From Muribaculaceae bacterium (GTDB lineage: Bacteria; Bacteroidota; Bacteroidia; Bacteroidales; Muribaculaceae), in NCBI GenBank assembly GCA_024400935.1, contig JAKSLZ010000018.1, positions 1 to 43,291 on the forward strand: a stretch of 43,291 nucleotides of DNA, written 5' to 3'. The position numbers and the translations under genes were made by a program. Below the pieces are notes generated by a model that was not told the DNA's origin, ran no database searches, and was given only the letters and a program-made list of their open reading frames with translations. The first letter of the stretch is position 1; each line of letters begins with the position of its first letter. Shown in pieces: positions 2,583 to 23,997 of this stretch.

Positions 2583-2981
2583 CTACTGGGCACGCGCCAT
2601 CAGGAGCATGATGCGGGCACGGGCGGTGCGCCATGCCAGGCCGAAGTGGGTCCCCTCGTCGCCATAGTGGCGCAGCAGGGCATAGTTGGCAAGCAGGTCC
2701 ACAATGGTGTCGTGCACGGTGGCGGTGTGGCAGTCCATAGTGGCGGGAAGGGCAAGCCCTATGGTGATATTACCTTTGTCCAGAAACGGATTGTAGTTCC
2801 AGGCGTTGATATATCCTGCCAGTCGCATCCGCAGGTCGGCCAGGCCGTCCTCAATGCTCATCTCGAGCTTGCGGGCGTTGTCGGGGGTGAGTACTTTGAT
2901 ATCGGTCTCATAGGCCGCATGCCATGCACTGTCGGCATATATGCGGTCAAGGATTGTGTCCAGATCTATTGTGATTGTCAT
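2583..2981 (-). CDS. Hypothetical protein, second gene of a two-gene operon
   Basis: A 132-residue soluble protein that I do not recognise. It has no signal peptide and no membrane segment. It starts with an acidic, probably helical N-terminus (ITIDLDTILDRIYADSAWH), has several Trp and Tyr residues, and ends in a basic helix (FGLAWRTARARIMLLMARAQ). Its start codon overlaps the stop of the upstream gene by 4 nt (ATGA overlap), indicating translational coupling and a shared task with that gene. Its base composition is like the neighbours. Phage or mobile-element origin is possible but nothing in the sequence demonstrates it. Confidence 0.75.
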   Translation of the reverse strand: MTITIDLDTILDRIYADSAWHAAYETDIKVLTPDNARKLEMSIEDGLADLRMRLAGYINAWNYNPFLDKGNITIGLALPATMDCHTATVHDTIVDLLANYALLRHYGDEGTHFGLAWRTARARIMLLMARAQ

Positions 2982-3418
2982 GATTTCAAGGTCTTGTTGA
3001 TTTTGTGGTATGCATAATCGGGGGTAAAGAAAAATTGCGACGCACGACAGTTGTCGAGCACAAACTCAAGGGCACGTGGCACCGAGATGTCGCCATAGGA
3101 GCACAGCTGCTTCACCATCAACGCAAGTTCCTCCCACATAGACGCTTGATTAGAAGGCTTGACAGGGTTGACACCTTGATTGAGTATCGATGACACCACC
3201 AGATAGGCGCGGTCATAGCTCACATGATAGTGAGGCCTGAAATTGTGCGTGACATACTCTACTGCGGCATGGCGGGCATCAGAGACACCGGCCTCGAGCA
3301 TCAAGTCGAGCACGCGGCGATAATAGTCCATAAACTCGTTGTCGCGCTTAATGCGGTTGCGGTGCTTACCGCTTATCCCGCTTCCACCAGAATAGTTGTA
3401 ATGAGTGTGATGATTCAT
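2978..3418 (-). CDS. Hypothetical protein, first gene of a two-gene operon
   Basis: A 146-residue protein that I do not recognise. The N-terminus is unusually rich in His, Asn, Gly and Ser (MNHHTHYNYSGGSGISGKHR), followed by a predicted helical body with many aromatic residues (MDYYRRVLDLMLEAGV, YVTHNFRPHYHVSYDRAYLVV). There is no signal peptide. A strong promoter lies about 60 nt upstream, and the next gene overlaps by 4 nt, so the two form a dedicated operon. The start at 3416-3418 gives the shortest leader; no alternative start lies nearby. The function is unknown. Confidence 0.75.
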   Translation of the reverse strand: MNHHTHYNYSGGSGISGKHRNRIKRDNEFMDYYRRVLDLMLEAGVSDARHAAVEYVTHNFRPHYHVSYDRAYLVVSSILNQGVNPVKPSNQASMWEELALMVKQLCSYGDISVPRALEFVLDNCRASQFFFTPDYAYHKINKTLKS

Positions 3419-17918: not shown

Positions 17919-19109
17919 ATGAACTATAAAAGACCTTATTATACAACTGTTCTACAGCGTATTAACGAACAGCGCAGCAAACTGCAAGTCATTGTAGGGC
18001 CACGCCAAGTGGGGAAGTCTACATTGATTGGACAGGTACTTGAAGAATGTGAGATTCCGCACGAGAGCTATTCGTCAGATGATGTTACAGGCGTCACTGC
18101 TGACTGGCTGTCACAACTATGGGAGTCGCAACGACTCAAAATGGAGGCTCATAGCGAAACAAAACGTCTGCTAGTAATCGACGAAGTACAGAAAATAAAT
18201 AACTGGAGCGAAACCGTAAAGGCCGAATGGGACCGCGACACAAGAGAAAAAAGAGAACTCATTGTGGTTTTGCTTGGCTCATCTCGCATGTTGATTGAAA
18301 AAGGGTTAACAGAATCTCTTGCCGGACGATTTGAACTCATCAGGATGCCTCATTGGACTTATCCCGAGATGAGAGATTGCTTTGGTTGGAGTATCCCACA
18401 ATATGTATTTTACGGAGGATACCCCGGAGCGTCTCAATACATCAGTGACGAAAAAAGGTGGAGAACCTATGTAAAGGATTCGCTTATTGAACCCTCTATA
18501 TCAAAAGATGCACTGTTAAATACCAAAATAACCAAACCCCAACTGCTAAGGCAACTTTTTGAACTTGGATGTAGCTACAGCGGCGAGATATTATCATTAA
18601 CTAAAATGATTGCTCAGCTGCAAGATGCAGGCAATGTCACGACTCTGGCAGGCTATCTGCACCTACTGGACGAATGTGGATTGCTATGTGGTCTACAGAA
18701 ATATGCCGAAGACAAGGCGCGTAAATACAATTCAATCCCGAAATACCAAGTATATAACAGTGCTTTGCGCAGCGTTTATTGCGACGAATCATTTGACGAG
18801 GTGATTGAGGATCCCAAAATTTGGGGGAGATATGTCGAATCGGCAATAGGTGCACATCTGATAAGTCAGGCAGCCATTGTAGGTTACAGTGTTTATTACT
18901 GGCGAGAAAAAAATGAGGAAGTAGATTTTATATTGGTGCGGAACCGGAAAAAAATCGCCATCGAAGTGAAAAGCGGCCGACGTACTACCAACAAAGGTCT
19001 ATCAACATTTGCAGAATCCTATAATCCGCATCGCTCTATCGTAGTCGGTTCTGGAGGACTCTCGGTCGAAGAGCTCTTGACAATGGACCTGGAAATCCTG
19101 TTCAAATGA
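17919..19109 (+). CDS. AAA-family ATP-binding protein (AAA_14 / DUF4143)
   Basis: A 396-residue cytoplasmic P-loop ATPase. Walker A is GPRQVGKS at residues 27-34 and Walker B is LLVIDEVQ with D88-E89. The C-terminal half is the DUF4143 domain, ending in a PD-(D/E)XK nuclease-like signature (YYWREKNEEVDFIL, then IAIEVKSG around residues 327-355). Family members are common and highly variable in Bacteroidetes and are often in accessory regions. Their role is unresolved, with defence or DNA-related functions suggested. The coding sequence is more AT-rich and uses more AGA/ATA-type codons than its neighbours, suggesting transfer. It stands alone between repeats and a terminator. Confidence 0.9.
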   Translation: MNYKRPYYTTVLQRINEQRSKLQVIVGPRQVGKSTLIGQVLEECEIPHESYSSDDVTGVTADWLSQLWESQRLKMEAHSETKRLLVIDEVQKINNWSETVKAEWDRDTREKRELIVVLLGSSRMLIEKGLTESLAGRFELIRMPHWTYPEMRDCFGWSIPQYVFYGGYPGASQYISDEKRWRTYVKDSLIEPSISKDALLNTKITKPQLLRQLFELGCSYSGEILSLTKMIAQLQDAGNVTTLAGYLHLLDECGLLCGLQKYAEDKARKYNSIPKYQVYNSALRSVYCDESFDEVIEDPKIWGRYVESAIGAHLISQAAIVGYSVYYWREKNEEVDFILVRNRKKIAIEVKSGRRTTNKGLSTFAESYNPHRSIVVGSGGLSVEELLTMDLEILFK

Positions 19110-19132
19110 AGCATAGAGCCTCGGATATAAAG

Positions 19133-19169
19133 AAGCCCCACGCAACACCATAGTAGTTGCGTGAGGCTT
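19133..19169 (+). terminator. Terminator of the AAA ATPase gene
   Basis: A 14-nt arm at 19133-19146 (AAGCCCCACGCAAC) pairs with GTTGCGTGAGGCTT at 19156-19169, with one mismatch. It is followed by a T-containing TATCTT. Confidence 0.75.
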
Positions 19170-19170
19170 T

Positions 19171-19269
19171 ATCTTAAAGTCTTATAGGACGAAGTCCGTC
19201 CTTATAGCGAAGCGTCCTTATAGCCTGCGCGAGCAGGCGTTCTTAAAGCGCAGCGTTCTTAACGTCTTA
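19171..19269. repeat. Array of mini-hairpins separated by TTATAG / TTAAAG
   Basis: Six units each begin TTATAG, TTAAAG or TTAACG and end GTC, GTCC or GTTC. Their lengths are about 8, 20, 16, 25, 16 and 8 nt. The four longer units contain short hairpins with loops closed by a C-G pair: GGACGAAGTCC, GCGAAGC (19207-19213), GCCTGC-GCGA-GCAGGC, and GCGCAGC. The array ends in the stop codon of the M6 protease gene (19267-19269). Confidence 0.85.
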
Positions 19270-21495
19270 GTTCAGCATCAGGTTGAGGAGTTCGTTGACG
19301 TCGGCGATGTCATCCAGGGAGTCACCGTTGACGTCGGCGCGGCCGTTGTACTTGCTTGCGCTGTCAAAGCCTAACATAATATTGATCAGAACATTGACAT
19401 CATTAATATCTACCTTGCCGTCGCCGTTCACGTCGCCCTTGACTGCGGGCTTACCAGGCTCGCCGTTGTAGTATATGGTAAAGTCGTCAACATAGATGGG
19501 CACGGTCTTGCTGCCGGCACTCATCTGCACGCGGAAGAGCGCACCCTGAGTGTTGAGCAGGTTGAGGGCCCATGAAGTGCTGGCCTTGGTGTTGCCCGAG
19601 ATTGAGACGGGAGTGCTGCCCGATGAGCTCTTGGGCTTAACCCATGTGGTGCCGCCGTCGATGCTGTACTGCAGCGCAACCTTAGCAGTTGTCGATGATG
19701 TGTTGTTCACCTCAAATGTAATCTGGTCGCAGTTGTAATAAACAGGCTGGGTCGAAGTGAAGACGCTGGGCGTGAGCATTGACACCGCACGCTTGCCGTT
19801 GCAGTTGCCTGTGCCGGGCTCTACCACGTTGCACTGGTTGAAGTCCCAAGTGGCGAAGTTGCCCTGCACGCCGGTTGCAGTCTTAGATGTGGTGGCAGGC
19901 ATCTTCTCAAAGTCCTCAACTACCTTCTGCACATCATTCTCGTTTCTAAAGTCAAACGAAATGACACCGCCCACCTCGCTGATGTTGAACAAACCCATCT
20001 CGGTGGTTGAGCCGTTCCATGTGGCGAGCTTGGGTTTAGAAGTTGAGCACAGCTTGTTGTTGCCTGTGGTGCCGGGGAACGGGTCGCTTGCAAGCGATCC
20101 CGAAGTAGAGTTGCCGGCACGCAGCAGCTCGTAGTAGTTGTGATTGGGATTAGCGTTAACGGTGTTGTTGTTCCAGGGCGAGGTGCTGGTAGAGTCAACA
20201 CGCGCCACAATCATGCCGTGACCGGGCAGATAAGCATCCCAGCGGGTCTTCTGACGGTTGTCCAGGATGAAGTACTCACGCGCAACGGGCGACTTGATGA
20301 TGTAACCCTCGTTGCTCATGATGGGGTTGAGGGTATAGTGGCCGGGGGTAGTGAGCACAGTGGGCTTGGCAAAGCCTAATGAATAGCGCTCATAGATGCT
20401 GTAACCGCAGGGAGTGCGGCTGCTGTTGGCCGAGCCGCCACCTGCCATGATGTCCCACATGTCGGGGTCGTGGCTTTGGCCGCTGGTCTCATAGTTGGTG
20501 TCATACAGGTCGGGGAGACCCAGCACGTGGCTGAACTCGTGGCAGATAGTGCCGATGCCTTCAACGGTGATGCTGGCGGGCTCTGATGTCCAACCGTAAA
20601 GCTCGGTTGAGCAAGCATAGTAGCCTATGCGCTTGCCGTCGTAGTTAGTATAATAGAACGATGACTGGTGGGGCCACAGCCAGTTGCCGTTATTGCCCGC
20701 AAATGACGATGACATACCCGCTACCTGGAAGAACACGAGGTCGACGGTACCGTCGCCATTGCCGTCATAGCGAGAGAAGTCGCAGCCCATGTTATCGGCA
20801 GCGGTAAGGGCAGCCTTGAAGATGGTCTGGGCATAGCTGGTGCCGCGGAACGATGTGCTTGAATAGTTCACACTTACCGGGCCGATGATGTCAAACTCGG
20901 GAGTGAACATACCGTTGCTGTTCTCGGTGTAATAGTCGCGCAAACTGCCGGTGCAAGGCACACGCTGGCCGCTGGTGTTGGTGTAACCGGTCCAGTTGGG
21001 AGTATTGCACATCTCGCTGTAGAATGCGTTGGGATCGGGCATCGAGAACTTCACGTCGGTGAGGTTGATGAGGATGATGAGGCCGCGGTAGTTGCTGTAG
21101 TTGGGAGCCTTCTGGGGCTCGCCAGGAGCCGACATACGCTTAGCGCGCTGTGCCTCGCCCTGAGCATGAGCGTCGCGGTCAGTGATATACTTGGCAGTCT
21201 GTGCTAAGAAAGCATTCTCGGCGGGAGTGCGGTCGGCAAGGTCGTGTGCCTTGATGCCGCTGGCCTTAAGCTGCTCGCCGTCGCGCACGGCATACTGGTA
21301 AACGCCGCTCGCGTCCTGAACGATTGTGTAACCGTCAACTGTGGTGTTGAAGTGATAATACTCGTCGCCCACCAGCTTGATGGTGAGTTGCGAGCCGTCG
21401 GGCTGGGCAACCTTAGCATTGCCGCGGTGAGCCGGGATTGCCATTGCAGCAATCGACACCAGTGCCGCAAGTGCCCCTAAGAATGTTCTTTTCAT
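19267..21495 (-). CDS. M6-family metalloprotease with C-terminal dockerin (copy 1)
   Basis: A 742-residue secreted zinc protease of the immune inhibitor A (M6) type. Residues 1-22 are the signal peptide. An N-terminal propeptide-like domain (TIKLVGDEYYHFNTTVDGY) is followed by the catalytic domain. The zinc motif HEFSH is at residues 319-323 in ICHEFSHVLGLPDLYDTNYE, with the downstream Met-turn-like DIMAGGG. A C-terminal jelly-roll-like beta domain (about residues 540-680) and a dockerin (last 56 residues, DVNGDGKVDINDVN and a second repeat) complete it. It is a close paralogue of the next upstream gene. Secreted M6 proteases degrade host or dietary protein; the actual substrate is unknown. 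The mini-hairpin array directly abuts its stop codon. Confidence 0.92.
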   Translation of the reverse strand: MKRTFLGALAALVSIAAMAIPAHRGNAKVAQPDGSQLTIKLVGDEYYHFNTTVDGYTIVQDASGVYQYAVRDGEQLKASGIKAHDLADRTPAENAFLAQTAKYITDRDAHAQGEAQRAKRMSAPGEPQKAPNYSNYRGLIILINLTDVKFSMPDPNAFYSEMCNTPNWTGYTNTSGQRVPCTGSLRDYYTENSNGMFTPEFDIIGPVSVNYSSTSFRGTSYAQTIFKAALTAADNMGCDFSRYDGNGDGTVDLVFFQVAGMSSSFAGNNGNWLWPHQSSFYYTNYDGKRIGYYACSTELYGWTSEPASITVEGIGTICHEFSHVLGLPDLYDTNYETSGQSHDPDMWDIMAGGGSANSSRTPCGYSIYERYSLGFAKPTVLTTPGHYTLNPIMSNEGYIIKSPVAREYFILDNRQKTRWDAYLPGHGMIVARVDSTSTSPWNNNTVNANPNHNYYELLRAGNSTSGSLASDPFPGTTGNNKLCSTSKPKLATWNGSTTEMGLFNISEVGGVISFDFRNENDVQKVVEDFEKMPATTSKTATGVQGNFATWDFNQCNVVEPGTGNCNGKRAVSMLTPSVFTSTQPVYYNCDQITFEVNNTSSTTAKVALQYSIDGGTTWVKPKSSSGSTPVSISGNTKASTSWALNLLNTQGALFRVQMSAGSKTVPIYVDDFTIYYNGEPGKPAVKGDVNGDGKVDINDVNVLINIMLGFDSASKYNGRADVNGDSLDDIADVNELLNLMLN

Positions 21496-21693: not shown

Positions 21694-23928
21694 TTACTTA
21701 CTCAGGATGAGGTTGATGAGGATGTTCAGGTCGTTGATATCAACGGTGCCGTCGTTGTTAATGTCGGCGCGGCCGTCAAATGTGTCGGCGCTGTCTTTGC
21801 CCAGCACTACGTTGATGAGCAGGTTCATGTCGTTGATGTCCACGACGCCGTCGTTGTTAACGTCACCGGGGCTTGCAGGCTTACCCTCCTCGCCGTTGTA
21901 GAAGACTGTGAAGTTGTCGATGAAGCAAGGCACTGTCTTGCTACCTGCGCTCATCTGCACGCGGAAGAGTGTACCCTGGGTGTTGTAAACCTCGATGGGC
22001 CATGAAACGACTGCGTTAGAGTTTGCAGCCACCTGCACGGGAGTAGCGCCTGTTGAGCTCTTGGGCTTAACCCAGGTCTTGCCACCGTCGGTAGAGTAAG
22101 TGAGGGCCAACTTGGCTGCTGTAGATGATGTGTTGTATGCCTCAAATGTTACCTGATAAGCATTGTAGTAGATGGGAGTGGCCGATGTGAACGCGCTGGG
22201 GGTTAACATGCGCACTGCATGCTGACCGTCGCACTTGCCAGCACCGGGAGCGTTGTTGTAACACTGGTTGAAGTCCCAAGTGGTGAAGACACCCTTGACA
22301 CCTGTAGCAGTCTTGTTGGTAGTGGTGGGCATTGCCTCAAAGTCCTCGACGAGACTCTTTACTTCGCCCGAGTTCATCACGTCAAACTCGATGACGCCGT
22401 TGCTCTCAGTGATGTTGTAGATACCCATAGACATAGTAGTGCCGTTCCATGTGGCAAGGGCGGGCATCGACTTGGCATTGAGTTGAGAGTTACCTGTTGA
22501 ACCGGGGAAGGGATCGCTTGCCTGTGCGCCGCTCTTAGAGTTGCCTGCGCGGAACATCTCGTAGTAGTTGTGCGAGGGGTTGCAGTTCACTGTATTGTTG
22601 ATCCAGGGAGAACTGCTGGTAGAGTCCACGCGGCACACAATCATGCCATGGCCGGGCAGATAAGTGTCCCAGCGAGTCTTCTGGCGGTTGTCGATGATGA
22701 AGTATTCCTTAGCAATGGGCGACTTGAGGATGTAACCCTCGTTGCTCATCACGGGGTTGAGCGTGTAGTGGCCGGGGCTGCCGATGACTTCGGGATTGGC
22801 AAATCCCAGTGCATAGCGCTCAAAGATGGTGTAACCCACGGGGGTGCGTGCCGAGTTGAAGCTGCCGCCGCCAGCCATGATGTCCCACTCCTCGGGATGG
22901 TGGCTCTGGCCGCCAGTCTCGTAGTTGGTGTCATAGAGGTCGGGGAAGCCCATCACATGGGTGAACTCGTGGCACATGGTGCCGATACCCTCGATGGTGA
23001 TTGTTGAGGGATAAGCCTCAAAACCGTAAATCTCGGTAGAGCTTGCATATGTGCCGAAACGCTTTCCGTCATAGGTGGGCGAGCTCCAGATTGACGACTT
23101 GTGGGGCCACAGCCAGTTGCCGTTGTTGCCGCCAAAGCTTGACGACATACCTGCAACCTGGAAGAACACCATGTCAACATATCCGTTATTGTCGGTATCA
23201 TACTTGGTGAAGTCACAGCCCTTGGCATCGGCTGCAGCGAGAGCGGCCTTGAAGATGGTCTGGGCGTTTGAAGTACCCTTCATGTCGGTAGACTTGTAGT
23301 TAACATCAACCGGGCCAATGATGTCAAACACGGGCTGGAACACACCGTTGCTGTTCTCGTTGTAGTAGTCATACATACTACCGGTGCAGTTAACGAACTT
23401 GCCGCTGTCGTCGGTATAGCCGGTCCAGCCATGAGCGTTGACCATGTCGTTGTAGAACTTGTTGGGGTCCTTCATCGAGAACTTCACGTCAGTGAAATTG
23501 ATGAGAATGATGAGACCGCGGAACTTGCTGTAGCTAACCGCCTTGTTGGGACCAGCGCCTTGCACATCGCGCTGCACGCGCTTAGCCTCGCCTGAAGCGT
23601 GCTCCTCGCGGTCGGTCATATACTTGGCTGTTGTGCTCAGGAAAGCCTTCTCGGCATCGGTGCGCTGCAGCTCGTCGTGAGCCTTGACGGTGCTGGCCTT
23701 GAGACCCTGGCCGTCGCGCAGGGCATACACATACACTCCGGCATTGTTCTTCACGATGGTGTAGCCATCGGTAGTGGTATTGAAGTGATAAAACTCATCG
23801 CCTATCAACTTGATAGTCAGCTTGGAGCCATCGGGTTGCGTAATCATTACGGGATCACGATGTGCCGGAATTGCCATTGCACTGATTGCAACGAGCAACA
23901 TTGCCATGAATAACGAAATTTTTCTCAT
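21694..23928 (-). CDS. M6-family metalloprotease with C-terminal dockerin (copy 2)
   Basis: A 744-residue paralogue of the preceding gene with the same order of parts: signal peptide (MRKISLFMAMLLVAISAMA), propeptide-like domain, M6 catalytic domain with HEFTH at residues 320-324 (MCHEFTHVMGFPDLYDTNYE), C-terminal beta domain and dockerin (DVNNDGVVDINDMN and DINNDGTVDINDLN). The start at 23926-23928 is chosen because the longer frame to 23976 would run through the predicted promoter. The two genes are head to tail with about 200 nt between them. This copy has the complete promoter; whether copy 1 is co-transcribed across the palindrome is unclear. Confidence 0.92.
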   Translation of the reverse strand: MRKISLFMAMLLVAISAMAIPAHRDPVMITQPDGSKLTIKLIGDEFYHFNTTTDGYTIVKNNAGVYVYALRDGQGLKASTVKAHDELQRTDAEKAFLSTTAKYMTDREEHASGEAKRVQRDVQGAGPNKAVSYSKFRGLIILINFTDVKFSMKDPNKFYNDMVNAHGWTGYTDDSGKFVNCTGSMYDYYNENSNGVFQPVFDIIGPVDVNYKSTDMKGTSNAQTIFKAALAAADAKGCDFTKYDTDNNGYVDMVFFQVAGMSSSFGGNNGNWLWPHKSSIWSSPTYDGKRFGTYASSTEIYGFEAYPSTITIEGIGTMCHEFTHVMGFPDLYDTNYETGGQSHHPEEWDIMAGGGSFNSARTPVGYTIFERYALGFANPEVIGSPGHYTLNPVMSNEGYILKSPIAKEYFIIDNRQKTRWDTYLPGHGMIVCRVDSTSSSPWINNTVNCNPSHNYYEMFRAGNSKSGAQASDPFPGSTGNSQLNAKSMPALATWNGTTMSMGIYNITESNGVIEFDVMNSGEVKSLVEDFEAMPTTTNKTATGVKGVFTTWDFNQCYNNAPGAGKCDGQHAVRMLTPSAFTSATPIYYNAYQVTFEAYNTSSTAAKLALTYSTDGGKTWVKPKSSTGATPVQVAANSNAVVSWPIEVYNTQGTLFRVQMSAGSKTVPCFIDNFTVFYNGEEGKPASPGDVNNDGVVDINDMNLLINVVLGKDSADTFDGRADINNDGTVDINDLNILINLILSK

Positions 23929-23965
23929 ATCTTTTAGGGTTTTACTGATACAATAAAATAATTCC

Positions 23966-23997
23966 CAAAGATACAAAGAAATCTTTAATTATACAAA
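23966..23997 (-). promoter_or_regulatory. Promoter of M6 protease copy 2
   Basis: Minus-strand TTTG (23994-23997), 20 nt, TATCTTTG (23966-23973); the leader is about 35 nt. Confidence 0.65.

Follow-up and report, generated by a model that had tools for sequence, protein, structure and literature searches.

Short extragenic palindromes that are dispersed, stand in arrays, are restricted to species and evolve fast are described for the REP/BIME elements and their RAYT (Y1) partners, and some REPs carry GCGNAGC at their apices (PMC2817692). DNA mini-hairpins in which two or more G–C pairs hold a GNA or GNNA loop are extraordinarily stable, GCGAAGC melting at 78 °C, and are known in the source consulted from oligonucleotides (PMC4686876). 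Our search of the literature, whose scope was limited to open-access papers, found no genomic repeat family built on this d(GNA)/d(GNNA) rule and no description of the array family reported here. We analysed a window, the whole 43,291-nucleotide stretch of DNA under study, from a Muribaculaceae genome (G000), and found that a row of small hairpins at one of its gene ends is a copy of a lineage-restricted, dispersed family of hairpin arrays anchored at stop codons. The genus is probably Sodaliphilus, within the Muribaculaceae; G176, G152, G186, G205, G210 and similar labels denote relatives of G000 in this genus.

The array occupies a region (window positions 19132–21495) in which the minus strand is the mRNA strand, and its parts, listed in mRNA order, are as follows.

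19267–21495, minus strand: open reading frame 5′ of the array, Peptidase_M6 with Dockerin_1 at the C-terminus (Pfam)
19267–19269, minus strand: stop codon TAA of the M6-peptidase/dockerin gene, followed by G (TAAG)
19255–19266, minus strand: leading part, a degenerate first unit TAAGACGT (stop codon included) running into the first full anchor TAAGAAC (19261–19255)
19248–19254, minus strand: hairpin 1, GC-TGC-GC; plus strand d(GC-GCA-GC)
19239–19247, minus strand: spacer TTTAAGAAC
19223–19238, minus strand: hairpin 2, GCCTGC-TCGC-GCAGGC; plus-strand loop d(C-GCGA-G)
19214–19222, minus strand: spacer TATAAGGAC, first copy
19207–19213, minus strand: hairpin 3, GC-TTC-GC; plus strand d(GC-GAA-GC)
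19198–19206, minus strand: spacer TATAAGGAC, second copy
19187–19197, minus strand: hairpin 4, GGAC-TTC-GTCC; plus strand d(GGAC-GAA-GTCC)
19171–19186, minus strand: tail TATAAGACTTTAAGAT
19132–19170, no strand assigned: imperfect inverted repeat with a T-rich flank, terminator-like by eye, following the array

Read along the mRNA strand, the order is TAAGACGT, TAAGAAC, GCTGCGC, TTTAAGAAC, GCCTGCTCGCGCAGGC, TATAAGGAC, GCTTCGC, TATAAGGAC, GGACTTCGTCC and TATAAGACTTTAAGAT. The six units described in the original prediction, and its four loops closed by C–G (GAA, GAA, GCGA and GCA), were present as stated. The prediction had also let the array end at the stop codon of the M6 protease; the stop codon does mark that edge (TAA, 19269–19267, minus), but the array sits past it, in the 3′ untranslated region. 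In place of the 8-nt base repeat proposed for the plus strand, a 9-nt spacer on the mRNA strand, T(A/T)TAAG(A/G)AC, describes the base unit better. This spacer, with a stop triplet inside it, alternates with a palindromic insert of variable stem to form the family unit. A TATAAGA tail terminates 13 of 25 arrays in G000 (by eye), and tails at L067, L052 and L066 show a second short repeat, of the GCCTATATAG / GCTTATATGG type, after some hairpin arrays. A consensus terminator scan made no call at 19132–19170. The open reading frame adjoining the M6/dockerin gene (window 21694–23976) is its paralogue by eye, and no array-pattern match was found at the 3′ end of that frame.

Taken alone, the locus makes a moderate case against chance. 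Its four C(GN(N)A)G hairpins within 99 bases were reached by 5 of 5,000 dinucleotide shuffles, and under a stricter rule in which the second pair must also be G–C the locus holds three hairpins, a number that 18 of 5,000 shuffles reached. In a scan of the window, plus-strand 99-base stretches with four such hairpins start at 19151–19190 only, all overlapping the array, and the minus strand contains at most two per 99-base stretch. The fold of the whole 99 bases was weakly better than that of shuffled sequences (z = −1.56 as RNA and −1.65 as DNA). Chance is ruled out by the genome-wide repeat: the tandem pattern TAAGRACG-N2-24-TWTAAGRACG gave 70 matches in G000, compared with 1 for a reversed-pattern control. 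A 231-base query matched 25 places in G000, itself counted. The original view that the array is not accidental, and that it belongs to a repeat family with hairpins between constant spacers, was borne out.

Across the genus, pattern matches occurred in 8 of 101 genomes and hairpin arrays in 3, the related gut bacteria G000 (70 matches), G176 (18) and G152 (3), in which genes are followed by short palindromic inserts rich in G and C. G222, G168 and G153 had a single match each, with no palindromes by eye. G205 (1 match) and G210 (2) carry a 32-bp tandem repeat that contains TAAGGACG and lies upstream of an ORF (L439, L440), with a GTAAAA/TTTTAC palindrome and an 8-nt loop in the G210 repeat; because its copies are identical in sequence and located before an ORF, we judged this repeat by eye to be different and set it aside as a family member. 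The search pattern is exact, so decayed arrays would escape it. Among 149 Muribaculaceae genomes, which include nine other genus members and neither G176 nor G152, four besides G000 matched, once each and with no palindromes by eye. A scan of named-species genomes returned at least 115 stretches with one array among them, in Candidatus Sodaliphilus fimicaballi E4_193, very probably the species of G176. A phage or plasmid origin was rejected, as blastn of 19100–19280 found no match in phage and plasmid records; a spacer-pattern scan of viral contigs gave one match per stretch among the matches listed, at the level of the pattern only. Rfam gave no match up to E = 1 in 18900–19500. Neither outcome named beforehand as counting against the prediction, an equal density by chance or relatives without the array or its units, occurred.

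We next mapped the arrays, defined by at least two anchors, in 35 G000 stretches (the window and L051–L084) that surround the matches listed and cover part of the genome, with gene calls checked at seven loci. These stretches contained 25 arrays, and 21 of them follow a gene in the sense orientation (two-sided binomial P = 0.0009). In all but one of the 21, the start falls in the interval from 3 nt upstream to 21 nt downstream of the stop codon's end; the remaining one, behind yebC, begins 62 nt from the stop, beyond a terminator-like repeat (by eye). The TAA of the first anchor is itself the gene's stop codon in five of the 21 sense arrays. L054 belongs to these five; its reading frame crosses earlier units before stopping at an anchor (by eye), so that the array starts inside the frame and units can precede the stop codon. 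The other four of the 25 arrays are inverted, each near a sense array. Placement was similar in the relatives: 6 of 8 arrays in G176 and 2 of 2 in G152 follow a gene in sense, and of these eight, seven start within 23 nt of the stop and one at 61 nt.

By Pfam, the genes in front are unrelated, comprising phosphoglucose isomerase, IF-2, an amino-acid-kinase family protein, semialdehyde dehydrogenase, YebC, a CLC channel, peptidases and an amylase; Era, LeuRS, ArgC and PyrH, named by eye, are also among them, several front genes have a C-terminal dockerin in common, and the front gene at L054 had no Pfam match. An array also lies between an argC-like gene and the next gene on the same strand. 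At L054, positions 2848–3386 (C53 of G000), a 23S_rRNA_IVP gene has a sense array on one side and, on the other, an inverted array opposed to it, and the orthologous site in G176 (L220) has the same pair of opposed arrays.

Extraction from G000 gave 109 inserts, 96 with at least two outer pairs. Over the three genomes, 126 of 146 inserts had two outer pairs, 116 of 146 were paired down to a 3–4-nt loop, and 20 of 146 lacked two outer pairs, a few inserts being chance matches outside arrays. Stems include GC, GGAC, GGGC, GGCAC, GGTGC, GCTCGC, GCCTGC, GGTTGC and GGAGC; those of G000 are 2–8 bp long and all have G first. A function as fail-safe stops in all frames was considered and rejected: unit periods (n = 74) left a remainder modulo 3 of 1 in 36 cases, 0 in 21 and 2 in 17, and frame-keeping periods were not avoided.

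Comparison of species separated the fate of the sites from that of the hairpins. Sequence downstream of era was read at 30 loci, and that downstream of leuS at 30 loci as well. In G000 and G176 both genes are followed by an array; by eye, none was present at the remaining 28 loci of either gene, G186 being covered for both genes and G152 for leuS. All six G176 array stretches align with G000 array stretches, with unit content differing at era, leuS and argC; the G152 infB array aligns with its G000 counterpart, and the other G152 array stretch aligns at its dockerin-like end only. At leuS, G000 and G176 differ in the number and identity of hairpins and keep the last unit (with two base differences) and the tail TATAAGACTTA. 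At argC the two have GCTCGCAAGCGAGC in common but not the hairpin of the unit preceding it, and their last units agree in stem and differ in loop. Array sites are conserved and hairpins exchanged between these two species, in agreement with the prediction that units would occur in related genomes and be gained or lost: two other genomes have units, and gains and losses are seen between species. At the 3′ end of leuS, several other members of the genus (L376–L403) carry various inverted repeats in place of a hairpin array, and gene 3′ ends in the genus therefore seem to turn over fast.

The loops follow a rule that distinguishes the two DNA strands. On the mRNA strand, 126 hairpins from the three genomes have 76 TN(N)C loops and 0 GN(N)A loops, a contrast that overstates independence because units copy each other; 59 distinct hairpins with 3–4-nt loops have 24 and 0, respectively. 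A TN(N)C loop on the mRNA strand reads as d(C-GN(N)A-G) on the template strand, where 76 of 126 units therefore fall, by loop class, under the rule for hyperstable mini-hairpins of single-stranded DNA. Perfect background hairpins from the same genome stretches (stem of at least 4, closed by C–G) comprised 24 TN(N)C and 17 GN(N)A, that is 41 of 387 in either class, compared with 20 of 50 TN(N)C among distinct array hairpins with stems of at least 4 (Fisher P = 8 × 10−7, the copies being not fully independent). The earlier assignment of the loops to the d(GNA)/d(GNNA) class was thus right for a part of the units and for one DNA strand, and 50 of 126 fall outside it: 3 VTNC, 6 CNNG, 31 fitting no stable motif known to us and 10 long loops. 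The tetraloops d(cGNABg) and d(cCNNGg) are also stable and would cover the 3 VTNC and 6 CNNG loops. Hairpins with the GCCTGC stem mostly lie outside the rule, and units with GGAC and GGCAC stems have A–T as their second pair. ViennaRNA DNA energies scarcely separate the strands, 2-bp hairpins standing at about +1.2 kcal/mol on either. A tendency in the counts for shorter stems to need a special loop was not significant on distinct types (268 of 5,000 permutations), and a stem-length dependence of the loop rule was dropped.

Copies of the family are dispersed, and most share one orientation and one position, after the stop codon of genes that are unrelated to each other; its d(C-GN(N)A-G) loops, where present, are confined to the template strand of the gene. 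From this pattern we tentatively favour, with somewhat less than even confidence, a reading in which 3′-end arrays turn over fast, are shaped by hairpin formation in single-stranded DNA and are tolerated at stop codons. Hairpins would form in single-stranded DNA of template-strand sequence, which for a gene co-directional with replication would be the sequence of the new lagging strand. Hairpin-assisted slippage or fold-back copying there could add, lose and re-perfect units, and would account for the variety of paired stem sequences, the confinement of stable loops to one strand and the rapid turnover. Short homology may seed new loci at TAA(G) stop codons; arrays would be tolerated there and not inside genes because every unit restores a stop codon, and a transcribed array may additionally act as a barrier at the 3′ end. 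We know of no bacterial counterpart of the fold-back synthesis carried out by Pol theta. The human enzyme performs such synthesis from two terminal base pairs, and the related Klenow fragment does not (PMC11292364). A more specific version, which we regard as unlikely although far from negligible, is a natural repeat family whose sequence is dictated by the single-stranded folding of one DNA strand. In this version an enzyme acting on single-stranded DNA, or a step of DNA synthesis by a polymerase where genes end, would either recognise d(C-GN(N)A-G) mini-hairpins or produce them, would freely rewrite the stems, and would place the hairpins at stop codons.

The strongest rival gives the arrays a role in RNA. 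A row of stem-loops selected in the mRNA 3′ untranslated region could protect the 3′ end, adjust how the upstream gene is terminated or translated, or bind a protein through UAUAAG(A/G)AC spacers and UN(N)C loops, an explanation that we consider quite possible without thinking it probable. The sense orientation of 21 of 25 arrays near a stop codon is what such an element would predict, and palindromes are retained while stem sequences change between species; the array that follows the argC-like gene and precedes its same-strand neighbour also fits. However, computed as RNA, units with 2-bp stems come to about +2 kcal/mol (the DNA value is likewise positive, at +1.2), the conserved loop class is a known DNA stability motif on the opposite strand, and arrays occur in 3 of 101 genus genomes although many of the front genes are general housekeeping genes. 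To our knowledge, UN(N)C loops have no such stability role in RNA.

We consider it very unlikely that the array is a REP/BIME-type element mobilised by a Y1 (HuH) transposase that recognises single-stranded DNA hairpins of one strand. None of 27 Y1_Tnp loci in G000, G176, G152 and G186, which are incomplete genomes, had a TAAGRACG anchor in flanks of up to ~1.5 kb, several of these loci have other palindromes alongside (by eye), and the arrays show no GTAG-type head and no single conserved stem sequence, even though Y1_Tnp genes are present (12 in G000, 8 in G176 with one below the family cut-off, 5 in G152 and 2 in G186) and the strand-specific loop class resembles the substrate expected of a Y1 enzyme. 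GCGNAGC occurs in REPs listed for Citrobacter, Enterobacter sakazakii and Klebsiella (PMC2817692), and this keeps the explanation alive. Several Y1_Tnp genes of G000 (L009–L018) are bordered by gene-specific palindromes (by eye) and look like separate REP/RAYT-type families. Finally, chance or an assembly artefact, for which the modest single-locus statistics (5 of 5,000 shuffles; fold z of about −1.6) might have left room, is practically excluded by the G000 count of 70 against 1 and by arrays at orthologous positions in the separate assemblies of G176 and G152.

If our preferred reading of fast-turning 3′-end arrays shaped by single-stranded DNA holds, the arrays would be a natural, strand-resolved record of short hairpins forming, or being recognised, in bacterial single-stranded DNA. 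Orthologous arrays in sister species display unit gain, unit loss and stem replacement, and the origin and spread of short palindromic repeats without a visible transposase would become testable.

We also considered where the spacer came from. Bare tandem TAARRAC occurs in 35 of 60 other genus members, with up to 112 matches per genome (for example, L360 and L407), and three tandem TAARRAC gave no match in G000, G176 or G152 in a search of 61 genomes. Eleven of the 20 bare loci read lie at most 14 nt before a start codon, unlike the hairpin arrays with their placement at stop codons. Derivation of the spacer from this genus-wide heptamer is only suggestive, and the same grade applies to the earlier proposal that hairpins were inserted into an older bare repeat.

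Among known systems, TAACTGA and other heptamer tandem repeats are likewise short, intergenic and tandem with stop triplets, but are described as bare and without hairpins (PMC4679880), whereas the G000 arrays carry hairpin inserts. CGTC-tagged palindromic repeats, reported from five phyla with Bacteroidetes among them, are likewise short and dispersed, with a conserved tag on one side of the palindrome (PMC3733652), and the template strand of the array reads CGTCC or CGTTC beside the stem. Those repeats have stems of 8–9 bp that almost always start with A–T pairs and loops of 4–5 nt (PMC3733652), and are not known to us to form head-to-tail arrays with exchanged stems; a terminal unpaired CGTC with an 8–9-bp stem starting in A–T was not found in G000, where stems of 2–8 bp start with G. 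The organelle palindromes of Volvox (PMC2670323) and the LIMP of Lobosphaera (PMC4524435) resemble the family in having a conserved loop class and in proliferating in the intergenic DNA of one lineage, but they are organellar, have TAAA/TTTA loops or a fixed 7-mer, and are not known to us to be tied to stop codons. With REP/BIME elements the family has in common many dispersed copies of an extragenic palindrome. No Y1 gene between two inverted repeat copies was found at the 27 Y1_Tnp loci of these incomplete genomes, and in place of a GT(A/G)G head and a conserved palindrome, the template-strand spacer reads GT(C/T)CTTA(T/A)A. Unlike REP/BIME elements, the array units run head to tail, with a spacer that bears a stop codon and a stem that changes from unit to unit.
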